A DNA stretch of 64,000 nucleotides from Platerodrilus igneus. Taxonomy: Eukaryota; Arthropoda; Insecta; Coleoptera; Lycidae. The stretch lies in contig JARFIW010000900.1 in assembly GCA_036346225.1 (NCBI GenBank), forward strand, positions 2,418,001 to 2,482,000, written 5' to 3'. A program made the position numbers and the translations under genes. The notes below the pieces were generated by a model, which was not told the origin of the DNA, did not search any database, and saw only the letters and a program-made list of their open reading frames with translations. Of this stretch, positions 6,440 through 64,000 are shown in pieces; within the stretch, counting starts at the first letter, position 1, and each line of letters opens with the position of its first letter.

Positions 6440-7690
6440 GATTTAGTTACCGTTTAGGAAAAGGGGTGTTATGCCCGCAATCTTCCTTCTCCGGGTGAAA
6501 GGTACTAAGGTGGATTTTTGAGGGTTGACTCGAAGGCTTTCCCCCGTTGCCCACCTCTCTATTATTTTTAGGGCTTCCTGCATTCGGTCCCTGATAATAT
6601 TGTTGTATTTACCTTTCACTAGAACTGCCAAATTATCAGCATATCCCAGCAGGGCAAACCCTTCTCTGCTCAGCTCTCACAACAGTCCATCTATTACTAG
6701 GTTCCACAACAGGGGAGACAAACCTTCCCCCTGCGGGTATCCCCTTGCCACCCGGACTGCCATGGTATCATCAAGCATTTCTGTGACTGCCACCTTTCCA
6801 CGTAACATGTAGTCTATCCAGCTGCAGCAAGTTTCTTCCATCCCAACTGATCTGGTAACCGTCGAGATGGAGCTGAAGAATGTGTTGTCGAAGTCTCCCT
6901 TGATGTCCAAAAAGGCACATAGAAGGATTTCTTTGTTAGCTAGACTTTTTTCAGCCCTGGAAACCAGGTGGTGAATAGTTGACTCTGTTGAAAGTTCTGC
7001 TCTAAAAGAAACTGGTTCGTGTAATGGGTTAGTTGCTAAAACACTTCCCTTGATATGTCTGTCAAGCAGTTTTTCCATCGTCTTAAGAAAAAAGGACATA
7101 AGATCGATGGGCCTGTAGGATTTTGCCTGTGAGAGGTCCGTACGACCAGGTTTAGCAATAAATACTACCCTAGTTAGCCTCCAACTGCGCGGAATTAATT
7201 TGAATGCCAAGCTAACCCTCAAAACTCTGCAGATCCAGCTCAGCAAAAGGTTTGATCCGTTTTGTAGCATGGCTGGGAAAATCCCGTTAATGCCGGGAGA
7301 TTTATATGGTTTGAAAGTATTAATCGCCCATTCAATTTTTTTGAAAGTTAATCACCTTCTTTGCTACTGCCCAGTCTTCCTGAGATGCCCTCCTTTCGGG
7401 GGCCTCAGGTCCCTTGGCTAGCCACACAAAAGGTGATTGTTCCAGTTCCGTCGAACCAGGAAAGTGAGTTTGGAGTACAAGAGCCATCGTCTTCTTCTCA
7501 ATCCTGGTAAAATTACTGTCTCCCATGGACAGTGAGCCAATAGATCTCTGGGTGTCCTTCGAGAGAATTCTTTGAAGTCTGGCACATTCAGGATATCCTT
7601 CGATATCTTCACAGTACTTCCTCCATGATTCTCTCTTGGCCTTTCTCAGAGCTTTGTTATACTCAGTAAGAGTCCGCTTGTACACCTCCC
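6440..7690 (-). pseudogene. LINE reverse transcriptase domain, inactivated
   Basis: Frames 7685-7332, 7270-6677 and 6631-6443 together carry the RT blocks. The finger region has RVVFIAKPGR and SYRPIDLMSFFLKTMEKLLD. Motif A is CAFLDIKGDFDN, and the GYPQGEGLSPLLWNLVIDGL block follows. At 6632-6643 the catalytic box reads YADN instead of YADD, losing an aspartate normally needed for metal binding. With the frameshifts this shows the copy is inactive. Confidence 0.85.
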
Positions 7691-7699
7691 AATTTCCAG

Positions 7700-8395
7700 A
7701 TTTTTGTCTTTATTAAATAAAGTGCTTACCTGTCCCCTCAGTTATCTGAGTTTAGAGTTCCACCACGGAACCTTACTGGTAGTTCTCCTCTACAACTGAG
7801 GGCTGTTATATGCTGAAGTAACCGCATTGGTAATATTCCCCACGGCCATTTCAATATCCAGACAGCTTTGCACTGTTAAAACTTCGCTTGCAAGGTACTG
7901 ATCTAGGTCCAACTTATAGTTACCCCAGTCAGTTTTCTTGGATTGCGATAAATCTCCTTCACCTTGTTGAGCCCGGTAAATGAAAATCTGATGTATCTGT
8001 GGTCTGAGCAGCTCTCCTCATCAGACACGTGCCAGTTCTTTACTAAGTTGCTTATGCATGGCGAACATATAGTTATATCAATAACTTTTATCCTACGTCT
8101 GTTTACGAAGGTTGGAGTATTTTTTTTATTCAAAATGTCTAAATGATTTGCCATTATTAATTGCATTATTGCTACACTTCTAAGATTGTCCCATACTGTG
8201 TGGTGAGCATTTACGTCGCTACCGATGACGAGGTGAGATCTATCAGCTCTGCACCTAGCCACCAGCTCAGGTTTGGGGAGTCGAACGGAAGATAGGCCGA
8301 TCCTAGTATTATCTCGATCCAGAGCAACCTTAACCGACACAAAAAGGAGGTCCATAATATCATTAGACCACCACGTCAGGTTACAGCCTCAGCTC
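7700..8395 (-). pseudogene. LINE apurinic-like endonuclease domain, partial
   Basis: The minus frame 8355-7903 contains GSDVNAHHTVWD and, further on, DITICSP and the C-terminal SDHRYIRF block, the conserved catalytic regions of LINE AP-like endonucleases that nick the target DNA. The reading just upstream (TWWSNDI) runs into a stop at about 8392, where LINE homology ends. After 7903 the frame shifts and continues to the RT at about 7690. The N-terminal catalytic part of the endonuclease is missing. Confidence 0.8.
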
Positions 8396-11300
8396 CACAG
8401 ACTGGATTATCAGCACCTGCATCATTTGTGTGCGACATTTGTGATATGGGGTTTGGGCGTCGAGCTAATTTAACCCGGCATCAGCACGCTCTCCACGGAG
8501 ATACTATTTCTTCTACATCGATGTCAGCCAAACGTGGAGCATCACCACCACGTGCTGCACCTGCCCCAAAACGCCAGCGACAGGACATACGATATTGCAA
8601 GGATTGCAATATGGACGTTCCTTCACGCCAGTTCCCTGGACATTTACGCAGTGCAGCGCATAAGACCAAATCCAGAGACCCCGAACAATACAGCTGTTAT
8701 CGTCAGCCTTCCGCTCCCGGATCGCAACTTATCGCATCAATAATATGTCTGGTTGTAGAGACATTGGAGACTTTTTACTTGAACAAAAGCCACATTTTGT
8801 AAAGTTGATCCAGGACACCTTGGAGGTCCACACGACCCTTAAATGTAATGTGGAAGTGTTTGGTATGTACACAAAGATGGACTTGGGTGATACCGAAGCA
8901 ACTAAATCTTTCAATACCAAGAATCAAATTATAACCCGATCGAGCGACTTGAACAAAGTGTATACGGCGTTTTCTCGGGAGATGCTCGATAAATCCCAAG
9001 AATTTGAACATCACCAGTCCGGTTGGACCTTACAACGTGTCCTGCATTTAGAACTAAACATCAACAAATACCAACCACTTAGGGGATCTTCTTACATTGA
9101 CCTTCCACGCTGGATAAAAGCTAAAAAAGCGGTGGTGAATATTAAAACCGAGACGCAGCCTGTTTTGCATACTCCATTGTAGCAGCGCTGTATCCTGCTG
9201 AGCATCACCCCAACGTCTTAGCAAGTACCCCATTACTCGAGCTGCTTAAATATGGGTGGTATAGAGTTCCCTATAGCCTTTGACAAGATTGCCAAGTTCG
9301 AGGCTTTGAACGATCTGAGTATCAATGTATTCGGTGTGGAAGGAAGATCTATTGTTGGTCCTCTACATTTTACTAAACGCAGGAGAGCCCGGCACATTAA
9401 CTTGCTCTACATCCAGGATGAAGAAAAAGGTCACTTCTGTTGGATCAAGGATTTGGGACGTCTGGTCGGTAAACAGTTATCAAAAAAACGCTTACATAAA
9501 TGGATCTGCGATGGATGTTTAATCTTTTTTCCGACTGAGACTGCCTTAATTAGGCATACTAAGCAGGACTGTAACCATGTCGTAACCCAAATGCCCACCG
9601 CCTTCAACAACGTTTTAGAATTTTCAAGCATCCAAAAACAAATGCAGGTCCCATTCGTTATTTATGCGGACTTTGAGTCGCTCCTACAGCCGTACAGTTT
9701 TGCGACGCCCGACCCCTCCACATCATCTACAACACCGCTTCAGCTGCATACCCCTTATAGCTGGGCATATTACATTAAATGCTGCTATGACAACTCCCTC
9801 AATAAATTTGAGATCTACCGGGGTCCAGACGCAGCACGTAAATTTGTTACCAAACTTAGAGAGGAAGCTAGACGTCTGGGTAAGATATTGACGACGAATG
9901 TGCCCATGATTCCTTTAGATGCCCAGAATGAACTTTTGTTCCACACTACCGAAGACTGTGGGATATGCAAGAAACCGCTTGGAACAGACCGTGTGCGGGA
10001 TCACAACCACATGAATGGTGTGTACCGCTTTCCTGTACACTCAAATGTAACATCCTCTATCGGGTTCCGCAGTTTATCCCAGTGGTGTTTCACAACCTTA
10101 GTGGATATGATGCTCATTTCATCATAAAAGAACTGGGGTATGATAATGAGAAGATTAACGTTATACCGAACAATAAAGAGCGGTTCATCTCGTTTTCAAA
10201 AACTGTACGACTATACGATTCAGAAGTGGTCTTAGACGGACAAGAAAAGACTGTCGACAAGCCCTGTGTCCAACTTCGGTTTATCGACTCTCTCCGATTT
10301 ATGGCGGCCGGGTTGGATACACTAGCGAAGAATTTGCCCCAGGACCAGTTTGTAGAGGTCAGACGTCACTTTCCGAGGACTCAGGTTCCAACTGGTTACC
10401 AAGAAAGGTGTGTTTCCATACACTTACATACAAAGTATGGAAGTATTGGACGAAACAGCTCTTCCACCACAGGCTGCCTTCTACAATGATCTCGCCTCTA
10501 CATCCATTACCACCGACGAATACGACAGGGCTCAGAAGGTATGGAGGGACTTTGGTCTTAACACGCTCGGAGAATATAGCGACCTCTATTTGAAGACAGA
10601 TGTACTGTTGTTAGCAGACGTCTTTGAGAACTTTCGCCGGGTGTGCATGTCGACTTATGACCTTGATCCGTGCCAGTATGTGACAGCGCCCTCATTAACC
10701 TGGGACGCCATGTTAAAATACACCGGCGTGAAACTGGAGCTCCTCACAGATATTGACATGTACCATTTTATAAAGTCTGGGATCAGAGGAGGTTTGACCC
10801 AGTGTAGTGGCCGCTACGCTGCTGCCAACAACAAGTACATGGAAGAGTACGATCCTACGGCTCCGTCTAAGTATTTAGCATACTACGATGCCAATAACTT
10901 GTATGGCTGGGCCATGAGCCAGGCTCTCCCTCTTGGAGGATTTCGATGGTTGCCCTCTACCGATATAGCCGAACTACATGCCACCATCTTAAATGTTCCC
11001 AAGGACTCTGCGAAAGGATTCATTCTGGAGGTCGACTTGGAGTACCCTTCACATTTACATGATCTCCACAACGAGCTGCCGTTCTGCCCGGAAATGAAAA
11101 CGTCGCCTTATATCACATCTAAGGCTCCGAAGCTCCTCGCCACCTTAGAAGACAAACACCGCTACATTATCCACTACAGGAATCTACAGCAGTGTGTGCG
11201 GAATGGATTAGTGTTGACCTCCATCCATCGGGTTCTCGAGTTCGACCAGTCTCCATGGTTGAAGCCTTATATCGAGTTGAACACGGACCTTCGCACTCGT

Positions 11301-12098
11301 GGCACTAACGCTTTTGAGAAGGACTTTTTCAAACTCATGAACAATGCCATCTTTGGTAAAACCATGGAAAATATAGACAAGCGCGTCGACGTGAAGCTTG
11401 TGACTCGATGGGAGTGTAACCGGAAGACCTTGTGTGCGAGTACCCTGATTGCCCGCCCGAACTTTAATTGTATTCTGGTACTAGGCGAAAATTTAGCACT
11501 CATACAGATGGACCGCGTTAAAGTCACCTATAATAAACCTATATATGCAGGCTTTTCGATTTTAGACCTATCAAAAACTTTGATTTATGACTTTCACTAT
11601 GAGAAACTGTTGCCTCTGTATGGGTCTAAGCTTTCGCTTTTGTATACAGATACCGATTCGCTCGTGTATAGTGTCGAAACAGAAGACTTGTACAGTGATA
11701 TTCATACCCACCTGGACCTATTCGACACTAGTGACTACCACCCAGACAATAAATATAAGATCCCACTTGTAAACAAGAAAGTGCCCGGAAAGTTCAAGGA
11801 TGAGTTTGGTGGTGAGATAGTTTTAGAGTTTGTGGGTACTCGCGCCAAGAGTTACTGTATAGTTAGCGAAAGGGATGTAATAAAAAAGATTAAAGGGGTT
11901 AAGCGTAGTGTTGCGCAGGGTATAAGTGTTGACAGTTTTAAGGACGTAGCACATAACAGTAACTTCCGAGCCCTCGTGCATTCGATGCGAACTATTAGGA
12001 GCAAAAAACATGATTTGTTTACGCTGTTACTTAGCAAGGTTAGTTTATCGGGCGCCGATGATAAGCGTTTCGTCATCCCTAACACGACCTTAATGTAT
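8396..12098 (+). pseudogene. Polinton/Maverick-type family B DNA polymerase, frameshifted
   Basis: Five consecutive frames build one protein-primed DNA polymerase. The N-terminus has two C2H2-like fingers (CDICDMGF..., YCKDCNMD...). Then come the GIEFP block, exonuclease box FVIYADFESLL, an endonuclease VII-like zinc block CGICKKPLGTDRVRDHNHMN, and NLSGYDAHFI (Exo II). The largest frame, 10410-12098, holds YLKTDVLLLADVFENF (Exo III), YYDANNLYG at about 10881-10907 (Pol A), LMNNAIFGKTMEN (Pol B) and YTDTDS at about 11641-11660 (Pol C). Breaks lie near 8740, 9165, 9255, 10025 and 10420. The last codons are at 20813-20857, beyond a gypsy insertion. No Polinton integrase, capsid or ATPase gene is seen, so this is a fragment. 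A related adintovirus-like source is possible. Confidence 0.85.
12095..12098. repeat. Target-site duplication GTAT (left copy)
   Basis: GTAT immediately precedes the first LTR base TG at 12099 and recurs right after the last LTR base at 20808. Four-base duplications are usual for Ty3/gypsy integration. Confidence 0.9.
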
Positions 12099-12796
12099 TG
12101 CTACACTTCGTTTACAGTTTTACCTGGTCGGTAATGCAGTTAACAAAATGTTACGCTTAGATTCTGGTACATTGAAATGGCGATAGATGGCTCTTAAAAG
12201 CCGGTAATACAATTACCAAAGTTCATAAGATACACATGACGTCACTGATAATTTATATTGCGCCATAATTAAGAGAAGGTACATAAAATTTAAACAATAA
12301 AAATTAGATACTCTACTCACGTGAAGGATCAACTAACCGGCAGGAAATCACGTCACGGTAACCTCGGCATCGCTGCTGGTAGAGTTGGACATCCAAATTA
12401 TCTCGGGGTCATGGGATGCTCCAGGGTCATCTCCGTTCCTATATGCAGTGGAAGACGGGAATAGGGAATTAAGGAAAGATACTCAAGATAAGGAAATCTA
12501 CATAATAAGATAACACGACACCCGGCACGACTGTTCACTTCAAAGTTCGGCGTAAAAAAAGCCACGTTTCCGCGCGAGAACCGCGGAACTCCCTACTCTT
12601 TTGTAGCATTGCCTTACCCCTATGGGGATAATTCACACTTGCCAATTGCACTATTGTGACGTACCGGAAGCCCCGCCCAGTTCATTTAAAAATGTTCGCG
12701 CGTCTTGCGTATTTAAAATTATGGCGGGAAGCTTCCGCACATTAAAAAACTACTTAACATAAAATGTTAAAGTGCAAATTCAGTTTGCACGTAACA
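12099..12796 (-). repeat. Gypsy 3' LTR (left copy)
   Basis: A 698 bp direct repeat of 20112-20808, beginning TG and ending CA. Near its right end it contains the inverted repeat GTGCAAATTCAGTTTGCAC (12771-12790 region). A GC box-like GGGCGGGG lies on the minus strand. The adjacent inside sequence (12797-12840) is pyrimidine-rich on the coding strand, so I do not see a typical polypurine tract. Confidence 0.95.
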
Positions 12797-14783
12797 ATCG
12801 CGACAAAGCCACAAAAGAAAAAACTTAAAAAAGAAAAAGTCTGTTAGCACAGTAACAGCTTAAAATCTAAGTCCTTACTACCCTACATAAACCCTAACTT
12901 AAAACCTACAAAATGTTTATATAAGGCGCCACCTGGTTTTTCGACCGATAGCACGTCTACCGAAGTACCAGGAAACGGAATAGGTAGCCCGATAGTCTTT
13001 GACTACACTACTTACCGACAGCACAAATTTGTCGGGGAGCATGAAACACTGCTTAAACTAACACGGGTGCGACAAGTCGCCTAACCTATCTAAACCTATC
13101 TAAACTTATCTAACTAAAGCTAACATAAGTTGTTATGTGCAAACACACATGAGTGTTGCATCAAACTATTCTTCTTTTTTGGCAAGAAGTGCCCAAATTT
13201 AAAAAATGTTCATGAGAGTGCGTCACCTTGCACTCTGGCAAATTTTGTTTCTGGTACTTTGGTTTCTTCCGATGCACATTTAACTTGTCCATGACACAGT
13301 TGTGAATCCACAAATTTACCAAAAGTACCGCCTACTAAATCCTTATATGCTAACCTGACAAATTACATTTCTAAATCGGGTTAGCTTTTTCACTTAAATT
13401 TCAGAAAGATAATTCCCACGTCTGGTCATATATACCACACGTTAGGACGATAAAAGATAAGATAAGATCTCAAATTGATGTTAAAGATAATAGATAAGGT
13501 AAAGATATTAAGCTTAAGTTGTTATCCTCAAAGGTAATGAATAAGATAACGGTATTAAGCTTTAGTTATTATTTGAGATACTCGATAAGATAACACGATA
13601 TTAAGTTAAAGTGATTATAAGAGATAGTAGGTAACATGAATTTAAACAGAAGTTATTGCTCAAGATAACCGGTAAGATAACGCGACATAACTCGAAGTTA
13701 TTCTAACGGTAGTCGGTAAGATAACGATAAATTAAACCAAAGTTATTACTAACGGTAATCGGTAAGATAACGATACTAAACTAAGGTTATTACCAAAGGT
13801 AATCAATAAGATAACGATATTAAACCTAAAGGTATTATCGAAGATAATAAAGAAGACAAAGATATTGGCCTAGTTATTACCCAAGACAATGATAACAACA
13901 AAAGAGTGGCTCCAGTAGAGCCGTTTAAATGGGATTGACCCTATAAAACACAGCGTAGTCTGAAGGACCACCTGCGATATTAATCCGACAAGATAAGATA
14001 TACACATTTTTAAAATTCACTAGACTCCTAAGAGAACTAGTACGATAATTTTCCTAACGAGTGCTTCAACTACGATAAGAAAATCAGACAAAAGTTGACA
14101 CAACAACTTACAAGTATCATTACAGATACAAACACACAAAAACAACTGTTTTAAGGTAGTTTTTTAAAACGGTAGCACCCTAAACACACAAAAATGCCCA
14201 ATTATAAGCAGTTAAATACAGATACACTGTCCCCATATGCTAAAACAACCGAGAATTTAATAAAATAACAATAAGAAAACAATAGCACCTCACCACAAAG
14301 TTCAATAAAAAATAACGAAAAAAAAGTTTATAAGTTATGTAGATTTAGTAGAAAAAGGAAATAAAGATATAGTGTAATGATGTAGTATAATGTGGGCGAC
14401 TGCAGTAATTCAGAAGAAAAACACATGGAATAGACAATCCTAGCCTTTGCAACTGCGAATATGAACTATTTCTTTCAATGGCATAGACCGCGCATGTCCT
14501 ATGTGAGCCCAAAGAAGAAAGCATTCACTCAACATCAGCTAAAACCAGTCATAAAAATTCAATGGGTTATTTCAACCAAAGTTACGACAATTACCTTTCA
14601 ATTAAACCATATAAGAGAAATACTAAAGACCGAACAATATGTAGTAGGAAAATTTCAAGGGTTAATTAAATGAAACGACAGAGCTATATTGGGGGGTGTA
14701 GAGGATGAAGTGATATATGAGTAACGGTATGGTCGAGGAAAGTCAACGAAAAGAAAAAGATAGCTAAATTAAGGTAAGTAAAG
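12797..14783 (-). other. Gypsy non-coding 3' region
   Basis: About 2 kb of A-rich sequence between the integrase C-terminus and the 3' LTR. It contains the 44-bp repeats but no env-like signal peptide, transmembrane segment or long minus frame. The plus-strand frame 14461-14673 has no recognisable content and is on the opposite strand to the element. Confidence 0.6.
13430..13900. repeat. 44-bp degenerate tandem repeat inside the gypsy 3' region
   Basis: Successive units with a period of about 44 bp share GTTATTACTAACGGTAAT and CGGTAAGATAACGAT-type cores. The clearest are between 13690 and 13880. They lie in the 2 kb between the integrase end and the 3' LTR. No coding function is apparent. 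Confidence 0.8.
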
Positions 14784-15960
14784 TTAAACGTGTAAGAAAT
14801 TATATACTATATGAGAGAAGGAATAAGTAATTAAAGATACTAATTGAGGGTGAGAACAAAAAATATTAGGTAAATCGTGAGGAGAATGGGGCATGAAAAA
14901 CTTAATTAGCATTTGGGTCGGCAGAGAATGGCTTAAGGTCTTTAATATGCCACCTGCCTTGGCGTTTTCCTTCAGTATCCTGAAGTTCATAGATAAGGGA
15001 CTAATAACACGTGTGACTTTACAAAGAATGAATTTAGGGGCCAATTTTGAAGAAAATTTCTTAGATGCATCCGATAAGACATAGTTCTTTTTCCAAACTT
15101 GTTCGCCCAAGGCAAAGGAAATATCTCGCTTACGCAAGTTATAATGGTCCTTACTCTTTTCGTAAGCTTTTAACAAATTTTTCTAACGTCGTTAAAGATA
15201 GAAGGTAGTGACTGTTGGTCCTTGTCCCAACGTACTTTATCGTCAAATTCAATTACGTTAGTATCGTCAGGCACTAAACCATAGTAACTCCCATCGATTG
15301 GGGTATATCTTCCAAAAACAAGAAAAGACGGAGTGAATTGGGTTGCTTCGTGTTTAGATGTACGCAAAGCTTGAGCAATTTCAAAGATATGTTCATCCCA
15401 TGTAGTATGGTCTGAATCAATATAAGACGAGATAGCGGTAATTAACACTCGATTTACTCTCTCGGTAGGGTTTACTTGGGGTGATATTTTGCGTTAAACC
15501 AAATTTTTGTACTTTGTAACTTTTAACGAAATTCTGAAAATCTTTAGAGATAAATTGTGCACCATTGTCACAAAGAATAATCTGGGGACACCAAAGATAA
15601 GAAAGACATTCTGTTCTAGGAATTTAATTATTGCTGCGGAGGTAGCTTTACGTAAGGGTTGCACCATAACAAATTTAGAAAACCAATCGGTAACAACCAA
15701 AAGATATTGATTGCCTCTTTTGATCGAGGAGAGGTCCTAATAAGTCAAGCGATATTAATTGAAAGGGATAAGATACACGCTTAAAGTTACCCATTAAACC
15801 AGGGCGAGCGTCTTGTGAACTCTTATGAGAACCACAAATTTTGCAGCTTTTAATGTAGCGACAAACAGATTGCTTAAGTGTGGGCCAGTAATACAATTCA
15901 GATATTTTCGCGAGAGTTTTGTAACACCAAGGTGTGCAGCTAAGGGATCGTCGTGACATA
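14784..15960 (-). pseudogene. Gypsy integrase region, frameshifted
   Basis: Frames 15959-15675, 15700-15494, 15448-15170 and 15176-14784 follow one another. They contain the zinc-binding CKICGSHKSS block, SYPFQLISLDLLGPL with the first catalytic aspartate, VVTDWFSKFVMVQPL, and the HTTWDEHIFEIAQALRTSKH and TPSFLVFGRYTPIDGSYYG blocks after the catalytic core. The C-terminal part is basic (YNLRKRDISFALGEQVW). At least three single-base frame changes occur, one beside the T run at about 15178-15183. Integrase inserts the cDNA into chromosomal DNA. Confidence 0.85.
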
Positions 15961-16520
15961 ATTTGAGCACCTCACTGCGATTTGCAGTGGGCACAACGAG
16001 TTTCCATTCAGGTATATTCGATATTTTATGTGGGGACGAGGATACAAATTTATACAGTCTATTATTAGTTACTCGAAAGGTAGGAAATTTGTCGGGATTA
16101 TCGGAAACTTTTTTTATCATATTGAGGTACCAGGTATCCAGAATTAAATTTGGAAGGTTCAGAGAAACTACATCTCGAGATAACGCATCAGGTACGATAT
16201 TTAATTTGCCAGGCCTATGCCTAACGTCAAAAGTAAATTGAGATATACGCAAGTTCCATCTTGCCAAACGACCTGCGGGTTGTTTCAAGTTATTAAGCCA
16301 AGTGAGTGCTGCACAATCAGTGATTACGGTAAAGTGTGTACCTTCGACATATCCTCTAAATTTCTCGATGCCAAAGATAACACCCAATAGTTCTCGTTCG
16401 GTAGCAGAGTATTTTTGTTCGGCAGAAGTTAAGGCACGGCTCGCATAAGCGATTGGATGTTCTAAACCATTGTTTACCTGGAACAACATTGCACCTAACC
16501 CAGTAAGTGAGGCATCGGTT
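15794..16520 (-). pseudogene. Gypsy RNase H domain
   Basis: The minus frame ending at 15794 starts inside the RNase H domain at 16489. The preceding bases encode IQTDASLTGLGA, with the first catalytic aspartate. Then come HPIAYASRALTSAEQKYSAT, TERELLGVIFGIEKF, and VITDCAALTWLNN. The domain is followed by the RHRPGKLNIVPDALSRD tether and an HHCC-type integrase N-terminus. A frame break separates it from the RT at about 16600. Confidence 0.9.
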
Positions 16521-16611
16521 TGTATATAAAACTTATCATCGAAATTTGGAGAGATTAAGATAGGTGCTGAAGTGATTAGTGTTTTAATTTGTTCGAAAGC
16601 CTGTTGGGATT

Positions 16612-17700
16612 CTAAATTCCACTCGATAGTTTGGGATTTCTTTTATTTTTAATTAAAGCGGTAATGGGTGCAGATATAGTTGAAAGGTTAGGTAGAAAAA
16701 TGCGATAGTAGCTAATCATTCCTATCAAACGTTTGATTTCGGTAACAGTTTTTGGTGTTTTAAATTTAGTAATAGCATCAACTTTAGCAGGATCGGCTCG
16801 TAAGCCTGTCCCATCGACAATAAAACCAAGAAATGTAAGGGATGAACGACAAAATTGAGACTTTTCCCAGTTTATCTTAAAACCTGCTGCATTTAAACGT
16901 TCAGCAACTTCATCTAATGTGGCGATATGTTCATCGAAAGAACTTGAGATAACTAAGATATCATCTAAAAATACAAAGGCACGTTCTTGATGTAAGATAG
17001 GACCTAACGTTTGATCCATAGTACGTTGTAAAGTTTGTGGAGCGTTACAGAGACCAAATGGCAAAAAATTATATTCGAAAAGACCTCGGCCTGGGACACA
17101 AAAAGCAGTTTTTTGACGAGAAGATAAGTCAAGAGGTATCTGATAAAAAGCTTGTCTTAGGTCGATAGATGAGATAAATTTTGCGTTACGAAGCCTGCTC
17201 AAAATTGAGTCAGTTCTGGGTAGAGGGTAAGCGTCTGGAACAGTAACAGAATTTAGCTTCCTGCCATCAAAACAAACACGCCATTCGTCATTCTTTTTCC
17301 GAACTAGCAATACGGGAGAGGTCCACGGTGAATTTGAAGGAGAGATAACACCAGATACTAACATTTTGTCTATTTCCGCATGTAAATGCTTTTGTAAGGC
17401 AGGCGATAAGGGATATTGACGTTGCTTAAAGGGAAGGGCATCACCTGTGGAGATAACGTGTGTTGCCGTTGTAACACAACCAAGTTCAGAGGTATTAAGT
17501 TTGCGAAATTTGTCGATTGTAGCGTTAAGAGTTACATCTTGGGAGTCATTAAGAGATTTTGTTAGATATTCCTGTAGATGCACAGGAGTTCGTTTTAATA
17601 GAGGTTTGCCATGAAAAATCCTGAAAGTAAAGTGACAGATTAAAAGTTTACAGAAATCAACGCCCAGTAGAAAAGGATACGCTAATGCAGGGACAATCAA
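16612..17700 (-). CDS. Gypsy reverse transcriptase segment of pol
   Basis: A 362-codon minus frame. Residues about 90-330 form the RT: WTSPVLLVRKKNDEWRVC, ISSIDLRQAFYQIPL (motif A), FLPFGLCNAPQTLQR (motif B) and FVFLDDILV (residues 242-250, catalytic FLDD at about 16960-16971). The C-terminus enters the connection domain (GMISYYRIFLPNLS). The N-terminus (LLGVDF) belongs to the end of the protease. The full polyprotein needs other frames on both sides, so this is one open block of a broken pol, not a free-standing gene. Confidence 0.9.
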   Translation of the reverse strand: MIVPALAYPFLLGVDFCKLLICHFTFRIFHGKPLLKRTPVHLQEYLTKSLNDSQDVTLNATIDKFRKLNTSELGCVTTATHVISTGDALPFKQRQYPLSPALQKHLHAEIDKMLVSGVISPSNSPWTSPVLLVRKKNDEWRVCFDGRKLNSVTVPDAYPLPRTDSILSRLRNAKFISSIDLRQAFYQIPLDLSSRQKTAFCVPGRGLFEYNFLPFGLCNAPQTLQRTMDQTLGPILHQERAFVFLDDILVISSSFDEHIATLDEVAERLNAAGFKINWEKSQFCRSSLTFLGFIVDGTGLRADPAKVDAITKFKTPKTVTEIKRLIGMISYYRIFLPNLSTISAPITALIKNKRNPKLSSGI

Positions 17701-18220
17701 AATAAAATATCACGTTCAAGAGACTCTACACGAATTTTTAACTTAAGGGAACCGGTTACATGTATTTGATTATCGTCAGCTAAATTTATGGAAGTTTTTC
17801 AGGAATAATTTGAATTTTGATATTTTGTTGAGATAATTGATGTAAACCTTCGTTATTTATAAGAGAACATGAAGAACCTGTATCCAGTAAAGCAATTACA
17901 TTTAAGGAACCAATTGAGATAGATAAGTGTGGACGGTTATCGAAGGGTTTTTAACAAGTTGTGAAACAGCGGTAGTCTTTTATGATAAAAGGAATTGACG
18001 GTTTGTAACCACTTAGACCACTCGGCTGGAGTAGTGTAGCATAATTCCTCTAATGAAGGTAAGGTATTTTGTACATTAATAGTAGCGGTATTATTATTAG
18101 ATAAATTTAATGACGGTACAACGTTAGAAGTGGTTTTATAATTTAAATTTATTGGCGTCTGTGTCCGTTGAATGATTGGTGTTGAGGGCGATTTTGGTTT
18201 CTTGAGATATTCACACCCTG
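17690..18220 (-). pseudogene. Gypsy protease region
   Basis: The minus strand encodes VIALLDTGSS at about 17870-17900. The DTG triad at 17870-17884 is the active-site signature of retroviral-type aspartic proteases. The LLGVDF flap-end block follows in the next frame near 17660. Stops and frame changes occur on both sides, so no single open frame covers it. Confidence 0.75.
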
Positions 18221-18222
18221 AT

Positions 18223-19486
18223 TTAAAATATCTCGACGGGAGTTTCCCGATACGTTAGGATTACAGTTGGTGCAGTTAGATTTGTAGATATTTGAGCGAC
18301 CACAGCCATAACAAAAATATTTCTAGGGTAAGTGCAGACAGTATAGTTATGTCCACTTCGCTTGCAGTTCCAACAGGTAAGTGCGTTATTAGTTACGGTA
18401 GAAGGAACGTTAAGTGTAGATACTTTACGGGAAGGTCGAACTTGGCAAGCTAGATCAGGTTCGAGAAGACCAGATAATTTCTCGGGTGGTGGTCGATATT
18501 TGTCAATCCTTGACCTCACTTCTTGAAGAGAGCGACATAGGTCTTTAAAATGAGCTAGCGAAGATATGGTCTGTAATCCCAAACGTTCTGAGAAATAGGG
18601 TTCAAATTTCTAAGTAATTGATCGATAATTTCGGATTCGGAAGGTTTTTTGTCGAGTCTGCTATATAAAGCTTCTAATGAGGTAATAAAAGACACAACAT
18701 TTTCGTCGGGACCTTGAGTTCGGTTACGAATTTCGTTCCAAAGATCGTTAATGTAGCCATAAGGTAGGAAGTCTCGTTTTAAACAGGCAACTAACTCATT
18801 CCAGGTAGAAATTTGGTGTCGTATGTTTCTATACCATATTAATGCTGAGCCTGCGAACAAATCACCAGCTGAGATAAATAGGTCCTGGTCGGTACACCCG
18901 CGAGAAATTTTAAAATCGTTAATCCGGTCAAGAAAGGATGATAAAGAAACCTTCGAATCAAACCCTTCAAAGGTGAGACCCCATTTGTATACAGGTATAG
19001 GTTTTCCTAATGGTTTAGGTTCGGCAAGCGCAAGATTTGAAAAAGGTAACGATATATCTACGTCTGCGTTAGGATTAAGTCTTTCTAAAAGAATTCCTTC
19101 AAGCAATAACACCTCGGACAACAAACTTTGTTTAGCTTGAGTCACTTGGTCATCGTTATATAAAGATAATGAATCAACTCGCTGTTTGACGTGAGTTATT
19201 CTTGAAGTCAATCTCCTAATTTGATATTAGTAGCCGCAGGATCTGTTTTGTTTATTATACCCGATATATCATCTAAAGATAATTTAATTTCTGATACGTT
19301 GAGTGGCCAATCGCCAACAGGGTTCTTTAAGATAGCCACGCCTTTGGTTTCCTGTGACAAAACAGCCCTAAGTTGAGATCGCCTATCATTCTGATTGGTC
19401 GCAGCTATGATACTTCTGCACTCCAGCTCGTAGATCAATTCCAGCGATTTTAAATGTGATACGTTCATTATGAATACAATATTCAA
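18223..19486 (-). pseudogene. Gypsy gag (matrix/capsid and CCHC knuckle)
   Basis: Three overlapping minus frames (19486-19208, 19211-18555, 18582-18223) read as one gag with two single-base breaks near 19210 and 18570. The middle frame carries the Retrotrans_gag core, including FDSKVSLSSFLDRIND, ALIWYRNIRHQISTWNELV and RNRTQGPDENVVSFITSLE. The C-terminal frame has a CCHC knuckle, CWNCKRSGHNYTVC, used for RNA packaging. The start at 19486 (MNIVFIMN) is the first methionine in frame; a later one is possible. Confidence 0.85.
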
Positions 19487-19489
19487 GAC

Positions 19490-20111
19490 ACGATATAAAA
19501 ATATGCGATTTTGACGCAGGTTAGAAGGTAAAAAACACGTTACAGCTACTTTGAGGTAATACGATACGATATTTAGAGGTAAGAACTTGTTAGAACGTCA
19601 CCGATAACACCAAAGAAACACATTTAAGGTATATGGAAACGAAATCAATGTTCAGTTAAATACATATTTTATAGATAATGACAGACAAGCCTTCCAAAAT
19701 GGAAAATGGGCGCAGAGGATATGTTATTTAACCTATAAGGCAACAACGTATAGTCAAACACTTCTTAAAAAGGTATACTAGCAATTTATTTCACTCAAGT
19801 GTTTTTAAACACTTAATTTTCATGTAAAAGATAAACCATAATGCAATTTTAGAATGTAACATAAAGATGTATTTAAGTTTCAAAAACGGCCTTTCAAAGT
19901 TAAGGAAAGCAACTAAAGATATTTTAATAGGTAATTCTATAATACTGTATTTAAAGACATAAGGTAAGGTAAATACTTACATGAATAAAAGTAAAGTTCT
20001 TTAAGTGAAGAAGCTATTAATGCATTGTATCCTTATAAAGGAAATTATTCTAACCTAAAACAAAGAAGAAGCCCCTGAAGTTCATAGCCTGAACAGGTTG
20101 AAGGCGCCATC
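19490..20111 (-). other. Gypsy 5' leader
   Basis: About 620 bp between the 5' LTR and the gag start in element orientation. It is AT-rich with no long frame. It begins with the primer binding site. Confidence 0.7.
20098..20109 (-). promoter_or_regulatory. Gypsy primer binding site (TGGCGCC)
   Basis: Two bases inside the 5' LTR the minus strand reads TGGCGCCTTCAA. TGG is the complement of the CCA tail of a tRNA, and GGCGCC-A endings occur in lysine tRNAs. The match beyond the first 7-8 bases was not tested. Confidence 0.65.
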
Positions 20112-20808
20112 TGCTACACTTCGTTTACAGTTTTACCTGGTCGGTAATGCAGTTAACAAAATGTTACGCTTAGATTCTGGTACATTGAAATGGCGATAGA
20201 TGGCTCTTAAAAGCCGGTAATACAATTACCAAAGTTCATAAGATACACATGACGTCACTGATAATTTATATTGCGCCATAATTAAGAGAAGGTACATAAA
20301 ATTTAAACAATAAAATTAGATACTCTACTCACGTGAAGGATCAACTAACCGGCAGGAAATCACGTCACGGTAACCTCGGCATCGCTGCTGGTAGAGTTGG
20401 ACATCCAAATTATCTCGGGGTCATGGGATGCTCCAGGGTCATCTCCGTTCCTATATGCAGTGGAAGACGGGAATAGGGAATTAAGGAAAGATACTCAAGA
20501 TAAGGAAATCTACATAATAAGATAACACGACACCCGGCACGACTGTTCACTTCAAAGTTCGGCGTAAAAAAAGCCACGTTTCCGCGCGAGAACCGCGGAA
20601 CTCCCTACTCTTTTGTAGCATTGCCTTACCCCTATGGGGATAATTCACACTTGCCAATTGCACTATTGTGACGTACCGGAAGCCCCGCCCAGTTCATTTA
20701 AAAATGTTCGCGCGTCTTGCGTATTCAAAATTATGGCGGGAAGCTTCCGCACATTAAAAAACTACTTAACATAAAATGTTAAAGTGCAAATTCAGTTTGC
20801 ACGTAACA
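20112..20808 (-). repeat. Gypsy 5' LTR (right copy)
   Basis: 697 bp, beginning TG and ending CA in genomic orientation. It matches 12099-12796 except for one A fewer in the A run near 20310 and C for T near 20726. It should hold the element promoter; I see no clear TATA box. Confidence 0.95.
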
Positions 20809-24915: not shown

Positions 24916-25440
24916 AGGGAAACCGAACTGTATCTAACAAGAAAGAGCAACGGCTATGTTTGAAGACAACAAACATAGAAACACGGACAAAAGTGTTGGA
25001 AGCATATGTGTGGAGCACAGCACTGTACGTCTATGAAATACGGATAGTAGGAGAAGCAGACAGCAAAAGAAAGATGTCTTTTGAAATGTTGTGCTTCAAC
25101 ATGGACAAATAAAGTTAATAACAAAGAGGTTATAGAAATAGTAGGGGAATAAAGATATCTGTCTGAAACAAAAAAAAAAATAGGAGAAATAGAAGGTCGG
25201 GATATGTTTTAAGGCATTTTTGGACAATAGTGCGGGCTATCTTACAGGCAGATATAGCAATAGATAGGTAAATGTAGACCCAGATCAGAATATTGCACGC
25301 AGATAGTGAAAGATGCAGACTGAGGGAATTTTAGGGAAATGTATCGGTTAATCCAGAATAGGGCACAATGGAGGTACGCGTTTAACCAGTTCTAGGCCTG
25401 CAGACTTGATGATGATAAAAAAGTAAAGTTGATGAAGATT
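24912..25440 (+). pseudogene. Second RTE-like LINE C-terminal fragment
   Basis: The frame 24912-25112 reads KTTNIETRTKVLEAYVWSTA and LYVYEIRIVGEADSKRKMSF, matching the C-terminal block of the LINE at 22.5-24 kb (KATNIETKKRLLKAYVCRTA). The tail motif CAATGGAGGTACGCGT is at about 25368-25383. An A run and several stops interrupt it. It extends the local cluster of fragments of this LINE family. Confidence 0.75.
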
Positions 25441-25965
25441 TCTTGGAAACAGAACGTTCTATAGAAAATTTGTAAACGCTGTCTTGTACATTTAAAATAG
25501 TTGCAATGACTAAGTGCGGTTTGTTTTTTATACCATTTCAAATAATTTCAAAAATAAAAACAAAATTGCGATATTTCGGATATTAACTATGGTCCGGGTT
25601 TACAAGTATAGTCTAACGGTGTCGCTATAAAATACACATATTTATTTCCGTTAAGAATATACCCCAATGAGCGATTCTCGCGGGAAGTACTACTTTAACG
25701 TTCCACCCCCACTTCATGCAACGCAACAGCTCGGTGGTTATTTGTATAAAACTACTACAGGAATTTGCGTGTTTGTTATAAATACTGGGTATTTTTGCCC
25801 TGTGCAAACTTTCATCTTTGCTGTTATTATGGTAAGTGCAATTATATTATCACATGCTTTTAAATATCACCAAATACGTTCTTTAGATAACACATGCATC
25901 AGAATTGAGTTAATGTGATGTTTTATTTATCTATTTGTTATCACGTGGAACGTTGCACTTGCATT
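25441..25965. other. Unassigned AT-rich stretch
   Basis: Short frames only (25667-25918 plus, 25625-25807 minus), with no domain I recognise. Confidence 0.4.
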
Positions 25966-26003
25966 CCAACATTGGTCCATGTCCATGAGCGGACCAATGT
26001 TGG
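25966..26003. repeat. Perfect 13-bp inverted repeat (hairpin)
   Basis: CCAACATTGGTCC at 25966-25978 and GGACCAATGTTGG at 25991-26003 are exact reverse complements around a 12-base spacer. It lies about 130 bp beyond the hammerhead-like motif in element orientation. Role unknown. Confidence 0.9.
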
Positions 26004-26119
26004 GTGTTACTTTTGTAAAACACGTATTTGTATTTAGATTCCCTTTAATAATCTATAGGAACACTGTGGCACGATTTAAATAAAATTAAATAAAAACCCC
26101 TAACCACAAAAAATATTTA

Positions 26120-26168
26120 AATTACTAGATACGTATTTCGACCACTATGTGGTCATCATCAGTAAGAA
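26120..26168 (-). ncRNA. Candidate type I hammerhead ribozyme of the Penelope-like element
   Basis: The minus strand carries CTGATGA (26156-26162), a hairpin formed by GACCAC and GTGGTC (26140-26154, 6 bp stem II), GAAA (26136-26139), a palindromic TACGTA (26130-26135) as minimal stem III, and a cleavage triplet ATC ending at 26128. Flanking A/T-rich arms can form a weak stem I. Hammerheads with very short, often palindromic stem III are known in Penelope-like elements. The motif lies in the 3' region of such an element here. Activity is not shown. Confidence 0.75.
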
Positions 26169-26505
26169 AAAAAAAAAATTTAGCTGTATAATTTACTATA
26201 TTGTTGCTTTAAACACTATCGAGGATATTCTCCTCACCCGCAGGCTGGTGTTCTCAACAACAAACAAGTGAATTGTGACATTATAACTTAAATCTACCTA
26301 ATTTATACTAATTCTAAATCTACTGAAGCGGAACCAGTTTAATCTTGCTTTCTCATTGGTTGTTGACCAATAGGAAAGCAAAGCAGATGACTCTATTGGC
26401 CCTTTATCGGTGTTTAAGAGGGTCCTTTATGTTTAACAATTTTAATTGATTCATAGGCATTTAAGGAGGAAAACGTTGGTACCGCTTTTAACAATTTAAC
26501 ATTTT

Positions 26506-26859
26506 CTAGTTTAACGGGTGGCTGGTTTCAAATATATGTTTGGCGACCTGAGACCTTTCATATTTACCATATTTGAAGTGAGCAATGTGTTCTTTAAATC
26601 TTGTTGTTATATTCCTCTTGGTCTGACCAATATATTTTTGAAAACACCCTGGCCCTGCACAACTAATTTCATAAATCCCCGACTTTTGCAATTTTTCCAC
26701 CTTGTCTTTTGGATTACCTAGCAAATCTTTAATTTTATTAGTATTAGTGAAAGCAATTTTGAAATTACACTGTTTGAATATTTTATCAAGACCCTTTGTG
26801 GTTTTGTGAAACGGAAGTTTAACATATTTAACATTATCGTTAGAGGTGGTTGATTGCAA
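26506..26859 (-). pseudogene. GIY-YIG endonuclease domain of the Penelope-like element
   Basis: The 117-codon minus frame has SGIYEISC with the GIY box, then KYIGQTKRNITTRFKEHI with the YIG box and the catalytic arginine region, then HIFETSH. This domain nicks target DNA in Penelope-like elements. It is separated from the RT by frame breaks. It stops at 26506, at about the usual C-terminus. Confidence 0.9.
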
Positions 26860-27246
26860 AGTCGTTGATTTACGGATGTTGATCCTATTTTTACACTTTC
26901 TAAAAATATTATCTATAATATCAGAAGAGAAACCATTGTAATTCGCTATTTGTTTAATAAGAGCAAATTCCTTATTAAATCTGTTTTATTTAAAGGAAAT
27001 TCAATAATCTATTAATTAAAAGTTAAATGAAGCCAACTTATGTTGTATGCTATGATTAGAGGAAGACAAAATAAAGCGATTTACATTGGTTTCTTTTCAA
27101 TAAATGTCAAATTCTAATTTATTACCATTTCTAATGTATCTAAAAAGGGTAATTGTCCATTATTCTCTAGTTCATACGTAAATTTTATGCTTTGAAATTT
27201 TGAATTCATTTCTTTAAGAAAATCATCAACATTTGATTTAGAAGTG

Positions 27247-27690
27247 TCAAAAATCTGCAAAAATATCATCCACGTACCTTAACCATATTCTTGGGAAGTA
27301 TTTGGAGTTTTCTTTTAACTCAGTTTCAAAACGAGACATAAATAAATTTGCTATGAAAGGTGATAAGCTATTTCCCATTGCTGTGCTTTCATGTTGTTCG
27401 TACAACTTGTTGTTGAATTGAAAACAGTTCTGGGACATGCAATGCGAAACAAGCTTGATATAGTCCTCAACTTTATCATCATCAATATCACTATCTATAA
27501 GAACATCCTTTAAATATGTTAAAGTACGTGGTATTGGAACACTAGGGAATAATGAACTGACATCAAATGAAATTAAGATTTCGTTCTCTTCTAATGTGAT
27601 ATTTTTAATTTTATTAATGAACTCTAAAGAGTTTTGTACAGACAAACTATTAAACTTTAAATTCTTAAATTCATTTGATACCTGAAACTA
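27247..27690 (-). pseudogene. Penelope-like reverse transcriptase, partial
   Basis: The 132-codon minus frame contains ILISFDVSSLFPSVPI (motif A), STAMGNSLSPFIANLFM (motif B) and LRYVDDIFA (motif C, catalytic YVDD intact). These are the Penelope-like RT signatures, related to telomerase RT. The frame breaks immediately after FADF, and the N-terminus is missing. Confidence 0.9.
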
Positions 27691-28268
27691 TTGGCTGGAG
27701 CCTAGTGCGGCAAATTTGGGGCCAACAGAAATTAAAAAGATTAATTTTTATTATTTATATATCTAAATATTATTAGGTCCACACAAACAATTCAATCTGT
27801 AATATGTTTTACCACTTAGATAAATTTTTCTACAATTTGCGTAGTCGCGTTTGAAAGTGGCGCGGGAACGAGTGACATGACCATGCGCTAAGTGTCCAAA
27901 CTGACTGCACGAGTGCGGCGCGGCCGCGGGAGCCTAAGCGGGTCGCGTTGTTTAAGACATACGCCTCATGGTGGCATTGAGTTTGAGATATAGATAATAG
28001 AGTGACGACACAAACGAAGACGCAGGAAGCCACGGTTGATTGCGTCCTGCAATTTCTAATACGTATTAATATATTTGGCAAATTTTCTTGGTTGTGTTCT
28101 GTAATTTTTCAGTGCTTCGTGTATTACTGTATTGTATTGTATATGAATAATTTCATAGCATAACATCACGTGAGTACAAACACTAACTTATAGTAGGTAA
28201 GTAATCATAATATATATGACATTTAAAATAAATCATCCGTAACGAATCAGTAAGAGTGTGTAAGACTA
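27691..28268 (+). other. Possible 5' part of the hAT element
   Basis: From about 27699 the plus strand reads TAGTGCGGCAAATTTGGGGC, resembling decayed hAT ends and faintly similar to the right end near 33032. A GC-richer patch (27850-28060) includes a NotI site-like GCGGCCGC. The 84-codon minus frame 27830-28081 is unrecognised. The assignment to the hAT element is by position only. Confidence 0.35.
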
Positions 28269-29371
28269 AAGCTAAGTTCTCACTACATCCGACATCCGAC
28301 ATCCAACGATCCGAAAGTACTGCTATTGGTTAAAAAAGTGTTGAATATTTAAATAGAAAAACGCGGGAGATGGTGATCAACTATCATCCGACATCGGATA
28401 GAGTTAAAATAGTTTAACTTTTTCCGACGATCGGATGAAATTACCATATAAACATTAAAATCTACATGACTTCCGACGACTTAATTTAATCTGACCAATT
28501 AGAATTAGTATAACTATATAAAAAAAATCTAAGACGCATGTACGCCTTACAACCAAACTTACGGAAATTTAATTTTATAAAGGGAAATTATATATTTTAA
28601 ATTAAATAACTAGTACTTAAATGTTAAACAAAATTTTAATATTATAAATATAATTTAATAAATTTTATTGTTTTAATGAAGTTTGAGTCTGACTACTTAT
28701 TGATATAAGCTCCCAGTACCACTCAAACAAACAGAAAAATAGAGAATAATTATTTAAAATTGTTAACATATATTCTGTGATTAGTCCCGGGTATTGTGAT
28801 TCCTCCAAATAAGTCAGTTTGATGTACGGTTGGAATATCTTCAGCCGAATTAGGAATGATTGCTTCATAGTGATCTCCATGTATCACATCCCTGCCATTT
28901 GAAGCGCAATGAACTATACCTAAAGAATCATTTGGATATCTATTAACGTTTATATTAGTTTGTACTGTTAACATTTCTCAAATAAATTCGAATATCCTGA
29001 AAACTAAATGAGATATCGAAAAGTGTATAGCATAGTTGTAATCAGCGTAAAAAACTAAACAAGGTACATATATATCATTTATTGTATCATTATGGGAATA
29101 TGGCAACGGACGACCTAACTTACTTCGTAAGTTTGGTTGATTTGTTAATCGCTGATTACTGTATCTACTATTACGAAATAAGGTTTAAATAAATGATACT
29201 TTAAGTATATGTTTTTATATGTTTACTAAATTGCTGGATTAAAAATTTTATTGTAAATATTTTGCAAACAACGTATTCGGATGCATGTGAACGGAGATTT
29301 TTCGTATCAGACAAATTTCATCCGATTCGAATATCGGACTTCGGATATCAGATGTCATGGGAACTTAGCTT
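28269..29371. mobile_element. Non-autonomous inverted-repeat element with ATCCGA motifs
   Basis: The ends AAGCTAAGTTCTCA at 28269 and its counterpart GGGAACTTAGCTT ending at 29371 are inverted repeats. Both continue into arrays of ATCCGA/TCGGAT motifs (28290-28450 and 29330-29360). Similarity between the ends extends about 35 bp with mismatches. The interior is AT-rich; the small minus frame 28750-28974 is unrecognised. I found no convincing target duplication, so the superfamily is open. It lies between the putative hAT 5' end and the hAT coding region. Confidence 0.7.
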
Positions 29372-29642
29372 ATGACGTAATTTTACTTGATAAATGGCTG
29401 TTTTGTTTCGGAAGCAAAGAAATTTCAACTTTTTGTTATATCATACTTAAATAAATTTCTTATACCTACTTAAGTTAGGTTTATTTAATGTCTGATATCT
29501 GAACAAAACATACTGCTGGTACCGTACGAGAAATAAAACTCTCAATGTAATCTTTTTTATTTCTGTTCTTGAATAACAAATTGTTAGAACGAGTGATGGG
29601 AGAAAGCGACTTAGTGGAGCTGAGTATAAAAAGAAGGTCAAA

Positions 29643-50520: not shown

Positions 50521-51569
50521 GTGTAACCGATTTGAATTCACTTAGATGTTGTTTTAAATAGTTTGATTGAATATTTCAAGTGCTTTAGAGTAAGGGTCGT
50601 AGACTACAAGTCTGACTTCCAAAATCGTAAATAAAACAAAACAGATTTTCATTTACATGAAACAAGTACTGAATCAACAATATTACCAACTTTTTAGGAA
50701 TAAATTAAAGCGGAATAAATACATACTCACCCCCGTGACGAATACATTACTTACCACCTGGCCCCCGTTTATTATGTGATTACATGATCGGCTAAACTTA
50801 TACTGAGTACAAGTTCTATGTACCTCAGCGGATCTGTATGCCCTATAAAAGTACATATAAGAAATAAAATAAATAAAAGATTTGGGGTTCGCCTGCGGTA
50901 TATTGCTTCTTATATTAACAAATTAACTTTATATACATTTATCTCATTACGTTTACGATTAAAATAACAAAGGCCAAGTGCATGCATTTGGGAATATTTA
51001 AACTATATATTTTGTACGATACCAAAATTATTTAAATAAGTTGAACCAACTTAATGTGAGTACATCATCCTTGGCTCAGAATCGACTTGCCAGATAATCG
51101 ATAAAATTCTACGAACGTTAAAATGGTGCCGTGTATTTTTTCTGTCCTTGCTGATAGGAAATAGGATAACTAGGATCTCTACATCAGTAGCACTTTTACT
51201 TTTTCCCAGAAGATAATTTCATACGATGATCCCAACAAGTTATTATGACCAAATTTGCTCTACAATAAACTCTAGTATGCCGAATAAAGCAATAATTTTT
51301 ATATTTTCCAACTAAAGAGAAATAACTATTTCAACCCTAAAGTAGATTCACAGTAAAAATAAGAATCGTACAAGGAATAAGGGTACCTAAAATAAATGGA
51401 ATTAGGAAATGTACATGTGGTACCGCCATACTTACAAGAATGCTCTAGCGCTAAAATGGTTATCTAAAAATCCGGAACAATTCCGTTAAATACAATAATA
51501 CATACTAATTAATGTATACTAGAAACTCGCCTAACATTATCCCGCAGTAAATGATGCCGATGAGTTAAT
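50521..51569. other. No recognisable feature
   Basis: AT-rich, no frame or repeat that I can support. Confidence 0.4.
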
Positions 51570-52085
51570 TTCCATCATCATCTTCATCAGGTATTCAGTT
51601 CTAGAACTGGTTGGACGCGTACCCTCATTGTTTCCTAGTCTGAACCAACCTACATATTTCTCTGAAATTTGCACAGTCTGCATCTATCACTATCTGCGTG
51701 CGAAAATCTGATCTCGGTTTACCTCTACCTATCTTTTCCTATCTCTGCTAGTAGTATATCCCGTACTATTTCCCAGAAATGCCTTAGAACGTATCCTGTC
51801 CTTCTATTTCTCCTATTTTTTTATTTGCCACAGATATCTTTATTTTTCTACTATTTCTACAACCTATTTGTTATTAACCTTGTCTGACCATGCTACCATC
51901 CTCATACATCTGAAGCACAACATTCCAGAATGCTGCTACCTTTTTTCCGTCTGCTTTTCCTACTGCCCTTATTTCATAGACGTACTGTGCTGTGCTCCAC
52001 AGTATGCTTTGAACAGTTTTCTTCTTATATCTATGTTCGTTGTCTTTGAACATAGCTACTGTTCTTTCTTGTTTGATGCAGTTCG
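51570..52085 (-). pseudogene. RTE-like LINE C-terminal fragment
   Basis: The minus strand reads like the C-terminal block of the LINE at 22.5-25.4 kb: ACAACGAACATAGATATAAG (TTNID), then a TGGAGCACAGCACAGTACG segment and GAAAAGCAGACGG. The tail motif AATGAGGGTACGCGTCCAAC follows near 51612-51632. Stops interrupt it. Confidence 0.75.
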
Positions 52086-60539: not shown

Positions 60540-62000
60540 GCGTAACTACTATCAGCTCCAGATTCCATTCATCACTCCACAACAAGCAAAGGATACAATA
60601 TTTAGACAACGTAACCGAAAAGCACCTTGGATGGACGGAATCTGGTACATGGCATTAATAAACATTGCAAAGTACACACTATCATATAACACATGATCTT
60701 TCGGTGAAATTTTGACCCAAAGATAGCACCACAAATCCTAGAAAATGTCCATCGCGATGATGATTCAAAAGCTAGGAAAAATAAGATCCTACCCAAACCA
60801 TTAGCTGCAAATTTTGACCCAAAGATAGCACCACAAATCCTAGAAAATGTCCATCGCGATGATGATTCAAAAGCTAGGAAAAATAAGATCCTACCCAAAC
60901 CATTAGCTGCAAATGGCACTCATCAGCTGCATGTCTAAAAAATTTTAAAAGACTACTATTCCAACTATTTCTAAAGCACTGAACCACACACGAGCCGTCG
61001 ATCAGATAGCCAAGAACTACAACAACTGAGTAACCTTCACGGTGTATCTAGATTTCAAGAACGTCTGACAAAGTGTGGCATCAAGAACTGCTATGCAAAC
61101 TTCATGAACCCCATCAAGTATCAACATCGTACATTTAGCTCCTGGATAGATACCTGGAAGATCTACAACTGCAAGTCAAACTCTGCGACAAGATATCCTA
61201 CTTAGCGACGATGACGACAGGGGCCACAGTTGGCAGCTGCTTGCCAGCATTACTTTTCAACGCATACAGCTACGACACACCATCTACATAACGTACAAAA
61301 TGCTGATGACACCATCTATCTCGCAAACAGCTGCAACCCGTGATTCGCAACAGCCAGCATAAACTCTAAGTAAATACACTACCGAAGTGGTTCAACAGTT
61401 GGAGTATACACCTAAACCCAGACAAGACACAAGCCATCCTATCCTGTAATCGTAGCCAGCATCCACTACTTCATTGCCGTCTCACCTGGACTAACGACAT
61501 CGACTACTTAGGCCTCAAAATTGACAGCCGATTGACGTTCAGTGCATACATTACTCCCATATTTAAGAAGACTAAAAGAATTAAAAACTACCTGCACCCC
61601 ATGATCTCGTACAACAGACTGTTGACGGAAACGAGAATGCGGATCCACAAGACATACCTGCGACGGACAATCATATACGCATAAGTAGCACGGATGCTGT
61701 ACCTGAACCACACCAACAAACGAATGATCGAGGCATTACAAAACGTCGTTCTTCAGTTAATAATCGAAACCCCATGAATCGCCGAAACGACATCATCAGG
61801 CACGGCATGCAAATATAGACCATTCGAGAACATACAGTACTGACTGCAAAAACATAAACACCATTGACACATCTCCGCACCAGTTCATACGAGCAATAGC
61901 TCCGCTGGCGGGAATCCAACAACGAAGAAGGAGAAGACTGAAAACTCTAGTTGACGGATAATTCTCGACAAGCTCCTACACCTCCTAAAACCAAAAAGCA
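60540..62000 (+). pseudogene. Jockey-like LINE reverse transcriptase relic
   Basis: Plus-strand blocks in order: RKAPWMDGIWYMALINIAK (about 60615-60670), NHTRAVDQIAKN (about 60980-61015), VYLDFKNV (motif A, about 61040-61065), GATVGSCLPALLFNAYS (motif B-like, about 61215-61275), NADDTIYLANSC (catalytic ADD, about 61300-61335), WSIHLNPDKTQAI and DIDYLGLKIDSRLTFSAYIT (about 61395-61560), and LRRTIIYA...ALQNVVLQLIIETP (about 61650-61780). This order is Jockey/CR1-like. Many frameshifts; a 102 bp tandem duplication interrupts it. Confidence 0.7.
60707..60910. repeat. Perfect 102 bp tandem duplication
   Basis: 60707-60808 is repeated without visible change at 60809-60910. Junctions share AAAT microhomology. 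It lies within the Jockey-like relic. Confidence 0.95.
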
Positions 62001-63990: not shown

Positions 63991-64000
63991 TAAAGTACAC

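Follow-up and report, generated by a model that had tools for sequence, protein, structure and literature searches.

A hammerhead-like motif with an additional U at the end of a broken Penelope-like element in a probable insect genome

A broken Penelope-like element and its neighbours

On the minus strand of the window (the whole 64,000-nucleotide stretch of DNA analysed here) lie the coding remnants of a Penelope-like element (PLE) and, downstream of them on the same strand, a hammerhead-like motif (Table 1). A PLE-type reverse transcriptase is present, and a C-terminal GIY-YIG region could be recognized by homology to relatives bearing PF01541; stops and frame changes separate the two coding pieces. 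Taken alone, the endonuclease-region frame matched 0 Pfam families at E<=0.01. PLE proteins match this region in tblastn, one of them being P0024, for which GIY-YIG (PF01541) is among the domains listed. A joined query identified 289 relatives among 4030 candidates; the best 120 of the 289 are listed, and among those named are three beetles, Aromia moschata, Molorchus minor and Tribolium castaneum, along with other insects. Relatives of at least 500 aa gave 99 tblastn rows at 25,000–29,500, with 26355 as the lowest end; 6 rows share the start at 27729, the highest common one, and a single row begins at 27831. Protein homology thus spans 27729 to about 26420. P0022, for example, aligned from 27729 to 26419 with 50% identity, and P0019 over 27675–26518 with 54% identity (E 5e-115). 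This adjacent reverse-transcriptase and endonuclease-region homology supports the setting in a Penelope-like element proposed by an earlier sequence-only reading of the same DNA.

Table 1. Coordinates of the motif parts and of the surrounding element within the window.
Feature	Position	Strand	Basis
Stem I 5' strand, UUCUUA, C26166 in a mismatch	26163..26168	-	sequence reading and folding
Core C3-A9, CUGAUGA (DNA CTGATGA 26162-26156)	26156..26162	-	sequence reading
Additional U separating A9 from G10.1, creating AUG	26155	-	sequence reading; compare PAc, CChMVd(+)
Stem II (6 bp, AUA loop)	26140..26154	-	sequence reading and folding
G12 A13 A14	26137..26139	-	sequence reading; GAAA spans 26139-26136
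Putative stem III palindrome AUACGUAU (DNA ATACGTAT), A15.1 to U16.1	26129..26136	-	sequence reading and folding
C17; predicted cleavage point between 26128 and 26127	26128	-	sequence reading
Stem I 3' strand, UAGUAA	26122..26127	-	sequence reading and folding
Broken, 5'-truncated Penelope-like element (PLE)	26091..27728	-	ends placed from the candidate duplication
Reverse transcriptase piece, YVDD motif	27247..27687	-	Pfam RVT_1 E 1.1e-9; relatives, 17 of 50 scored candidates
Open frame across GIY-YIG endonuclease region	26506..26985	-	PLE proteins matching in tblastn
Candidate target-site duplication TTTAATTT, 5' copy	27729..27736	-	shared 8-mer, adjoins homology limit
Candidate target-site duplication TTTAATTT, 3' copy	26083..26090	-	shared 8-mer

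The candidate target-site duplication TTTAATTT is 8 bp long and AT-rich, and the list of shared octamers in which it stands has three entries; for random 16-nt zones of the window, the probability of having an octamer in common is 0.0024, and higher if they are AT-rich. Were it a genuine duplication, the element would run from 27728 to 26091 and end 66 nt past the first base of the AUG contained in the motif. In one rotifer PLE, according to a passage of PMC3846280, the pLTR together with its tail enters the ORF by 22 codons, also 66 nt. No second pLTR was found in the window, in line with the 5' truncation of the copy. Immediately past the 3' limit proposed for the element comes a perfect 13-bp inverted repeat, CCAACATTGGTCC...GGACCAATGTTGG, with a 12-nt loop (25966–26003).

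Several other features lie elsewhere in the window. Two direct repeats, each spanning 552 bp or more and starting at 12099 and 20112, are 99.8% identical (0 mismatches, one gap) and enclose minus-strand homology to gag, RT and RNase H, so that 12099–20662 is probably a young Ty3-type LTR retrotransposon. Plus-strand open frames at 8296–12134, the last with a DNA_pol_B_2 match (E 1.1e-20), enter its left repeat at 12099 and are perhaps a Polinton-like polymerase broken by the LTR element. A minus-strand RVT_1 match (E 1.1e-11) at 6680–7351 is probably a LINE-type fragment. There is also a dispersed repeat family with members 78–88% alike in opposite orientations (25009–25427, 51569–52001 and 63925–63993), and a 102-bp exact tandem duplication at 60707–60910. 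An open frame at 41467–42246 matches the Methuselah N-terminus (E 3.9e-7), a Methuselah-type gene piece in keeping with an insect host.

Composition, rarity and predicted folding of the motif

Read on the minus strand from 26168 to 26122, the motif is UUCUUA CUGAUGA U GACCAC AUA GUGGUC GAA AUACGUAU C UAGUAA. The residues characteristic of a type I hammerhead core are in place: C3-A9, G12-A14, A15.1/U16.1 and, at H17, a base other than G. Of the three helices expected, with stem I open-ended, stem II is strong (arms GACCAC at 26154–26149 and GTGGTC at 26145–26140, loop ATA at 26148–26146). Stem III would have 2 pairs capped by a tetraloop, ACGU, in a monomer and 8 pairs between two molecules. 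Stem I is weak, with 3 pairs (one of them G-U), a C/U mismatch and 2 A-U pairs. The CTGATGA, the GACCAC/GTGGTC stem II, the GAAA and the ATC triplet that the sequence-only reading had put on the minus strand were each found in their place. That reading had also claimed hammerhead order and spacing; the order holds, and the spacing departs from it by one additional T/U at 26155, before stem II. The palindrome it described as TACGTA is real, although it is 8 nt long (ATACGTAT) and not 6.

The rarity of this arrangement was assessed with criteria chosen post hoc and modelled on the candidate: 0 or 1 added base, a minimum of 4 bp in stem II, and a minimum of 3 bp both in stem I and in a loopless stem III. 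On both strands, there was 1 match in the 64-kb window and none in 20 Mb simulated as first-order Markov sequence with the composition of the window. With these post hoc criteria, a stretch of 64 kb should hold fewer than about 0.01 chance matches (95% bound). By itself, the loose pattern CTGANGA...GAAA turns up 4 times in the window, and it is therefore the stems that distinguish the candidate.

A covariance-model search had been proposed as a check, and it came out negative: Rfam reported no hammerhead in the entire window at the gathering threshold, nor in 501 bases at E<=10. A match to an Rfam model is not in itself a defining trait of hammerheads. BLAST showed no second copy in the window, and an exact-pattern scan of viral contigs gave 0 matches. 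Protein-guided scans yielded 4 and 117 pattern matches in viral contigs and 97 in GTDB contigs, none confirmed by tblastn. The scanned collections are viral, bacterial and archaeal and therefore say little about insects. A literature search with sequence strings showed nothing on PLEs among the 15 of 242 matches listed.

In folding predictions, the monomer hammerhead scores -1.6 kcal/mol, or +0.9 kcal/mol with a 2-bp stem III. The predicted monomer optimum (-11.1 kcal/mol) is instead a hairpin, UUACUGAUG...UAUCUAGUAA, around stem II that also pairs the core; its stability is ordinary for the composition (z -1.28; equalled or bettered by 25 of 200 shuffles). The optimum of the dimer (-27.9 kcal/mol) does contain the 8-bp intermolecular stem III, but stem I has moved into C3-U4-G5, and a strict dimer hammerhead scores -14.1 kcal/mol. 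The sole control was PAc, a Poseidon element from Anolis carolinensis, for which a non-hammerhead monomer (-14.4 kcal/mol) outscores the hammerhead (-8.6 kcal/mol) and the dimer optimum is not hammerhead-like. Folding energies ignore the tertiary bonds of the core and do not settle activity. The lack of an Rfam match, the weak stem I and an alternative fold that traps the core count against activity. The suggestion that the RNA may cut as a dimer fits both the palindrome and the published PLE hammerheads, whereas the predicted energies show no clear preference for the active form. Dimer cleavage is named in the title of a 2017 paper by Lunse et al., as given in a reference list.

The additional U and comparison with known ribozymes

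The earlier statement that PLEs carry type I hammerheads with minimal stem III is backed by review passages, in which such ribozymes are reported as general in PLEs and possibly cutting as dimers. Compared by description only, and as far as the passages on them go, the minimal type I hammerheads described for PLE pLTRs (Cervera and de la Pena 2014; Lunse et al. 2017) resemble the motif in their minimal stem III, PLE location and proposed dimer action. Type I hammerheads of amphibians, including axolotl, have a very short stem III with a palindromic tetraloop and are efficient as dimers, according to passages of PMC7229834. Unlike the motif, they sit in small tandem retrozymes, and by the same passages they retain loop 1–loop 2 contacts.

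U26155 turns A9-U-G10.1 into an AUG on the minus strand, the end of which lies 26 nt from the predicted cut. In the printed PAc RNA, as given in the methods passage of PMC11167929, the ORF starts with CUCUGAGGAUGCC. Read as a hammerhead, which is our own reading of that passage, this RNA also has an additional U, and A9-U-G is the start codon. The likeness to PAc thus covers the PLE location, the additional U giving AUG, a 6-bp stem II and a 3-bp stem I, as far as the printed passages allow, and also the distance from AUG to cut (26 bp in PMC11167929). The stem III strand of PAc in these passages is the 4-nt palindrome ACGU, whereas that of the locus is the 8-nt AUACGUAU, in which ACGU is likewise central. 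The two differ further in that the PAc AUG opens a long ORF, while the frame opened by the ribozyme AUG of the locus closes after three codons. Cleavage of PAc has been demonstrated, with protein added, and that of the locus is predicted; in the assay the PAc ribozyme cut only when protein was added, and ribozyme mutants left insertion in vitro unaffected (PMC11167929).

A comparable insertion is described in passages of PMC3705267 for the CChMVd(+) hammerhead, which has one inserted residue between A9 and G10.1. There the residue is an A and the RNA that of a viroid, not of a retrotransposon; swapping this A for U raised trans-cleavage 3–4 fold over the natural A. Since PAc and CChMVd(+) show comparable insertions, the additional U alone does not point to decay. 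By analogy with these two, direct joining of the core to stem II would not be strictly defining for a hammerhead.

It is doubtful, judging by the frame that closes after three codons and by the proteins of relatives, that the ribozyme AUG ever started the ORF. An N-terminal profile was made from 22 of the 53 relatives that reach 600 aa, the other 31 being dropped for want of an initial Met or the LN motif; this motif was our choice, and of the 22, P0066 and P0096 at least seem to begin internally. The profile had no match at the ribozyme AUG, its best E (0.97) falling elsewhere. In a codon-compatibility test of 33 of the 53 relatives (20 were dropped, having no initial Met or anchor motif), the first Met was able to encode the motif in 2; shuffles averaged 3.2, and 170 of the 200 gave 2 or more. 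A conserved ORF start at the ribozyme AUG is thus unsupported by either test.

One could imagine that A9-U-G10.1 with its 26-nt AUG-to-cut distance is an old PLE trait, extending from insects to lizards, in which the start of translation competes with self-cleavage. If so, uncut RNA would serve as message and cut RNA as template minus the start codon. We regard this as unlikely: the profile and codon tests oppose an old shared AUG for the relatives examined, whose proteins may start at a later Met.

Interpretation of the locus

We consider it somewhat more likely than not that the motif is a minimal type I PLE hammerhead in the 3' terminal region (pLTR, of putative limits) of a truncated, broken copy, probably in an insect genome. 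This is supported by the core residues, 6-bp stem II, A15.1/U16.1 and C17, all in order, by the 0 chance matches in 20 Mb and the PLE homology upstream on the same strand, and by the additional U and 26-nt distance of PAc together with the intermolecular stem III of the dimer optimum. The reported generality of minimal hammerheads in PLEs and the stronger trans-cleavage of CChMVd(+) with a U in this place point the same way. It is opposed by the hairpin that outscores the monomer hammerhead, the disturbed stem I of the dimer optimum, the negative Rfam searches, the ordinary folding energy and the first Met of the relatives, which is not compatible beyond chance.

Alternatively, the motif would descend from an active PLE ribozyme that was damaged in this copy, abolishing RNA cutting, through the weakness of stem I, which adjoins a long T run, and perhaps through the additional U. 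In favour of this, the enclosing element is frameshifted and truncated, stem I is weak, and folding predictions prefer a trapping structure. Yet all core residues and the complete stem II are intact, beyond what neutral decay would suggest for an old copy, and PAc likewise has an additional U, just 3 stem I pairs and a preference for a non-hammerhead fold. We hold such damage to be a real possibility, although not the expected one. It is very unlikely, on the other hand, that UUACUGAUG...UAUCUAGUAA is a simple hairpin around stem II and the likeness to a hammerhead incidental; it is the predicted optimum, but an unexceptional one for its composition, and it leaves the GAAA, C17 and the ordered core beside a PLE unexplained. 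Even less credible is a chance match: the negative Rfam result and the post hoc choice of test criteria speak for it, whereas the contrast between 64 kb and 20 Mb, and the position at the end of an element type known to bear such a motif, speak against it.

Taking the motif as a PLE hammerhead, the most likely mechanism, by analogy with PLE hammerheads as described in published passages, would start from read-through RNA of intact tandem copies, with two motifs per transcript. Stem III would form between the palindromes of the two motifs, and cutting after C17 in both would yield unit-length RNA. The additional U would be a tolerated variant common to the locus and Anolis PAc. As the copy at hand is truncated and frameshifted, and the window holds a single motif, two-motif pairing within one transcript of the locus is not expected. 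Judged from that single motif and the broken ORF, the copy is dead, a relic, whose RNA may still be able to cut.

Minimal PLE hammerheads are already known, and what is new here is a probable insect example; the locus in itself is ordinary. It does raise a checkable detail, namely whether PLE hammerheads generally carry the additional U and whether it is linked to a start codon. This question bears on why PLEs keep the ribozyme, the reason for which is called unknown in a review passage.
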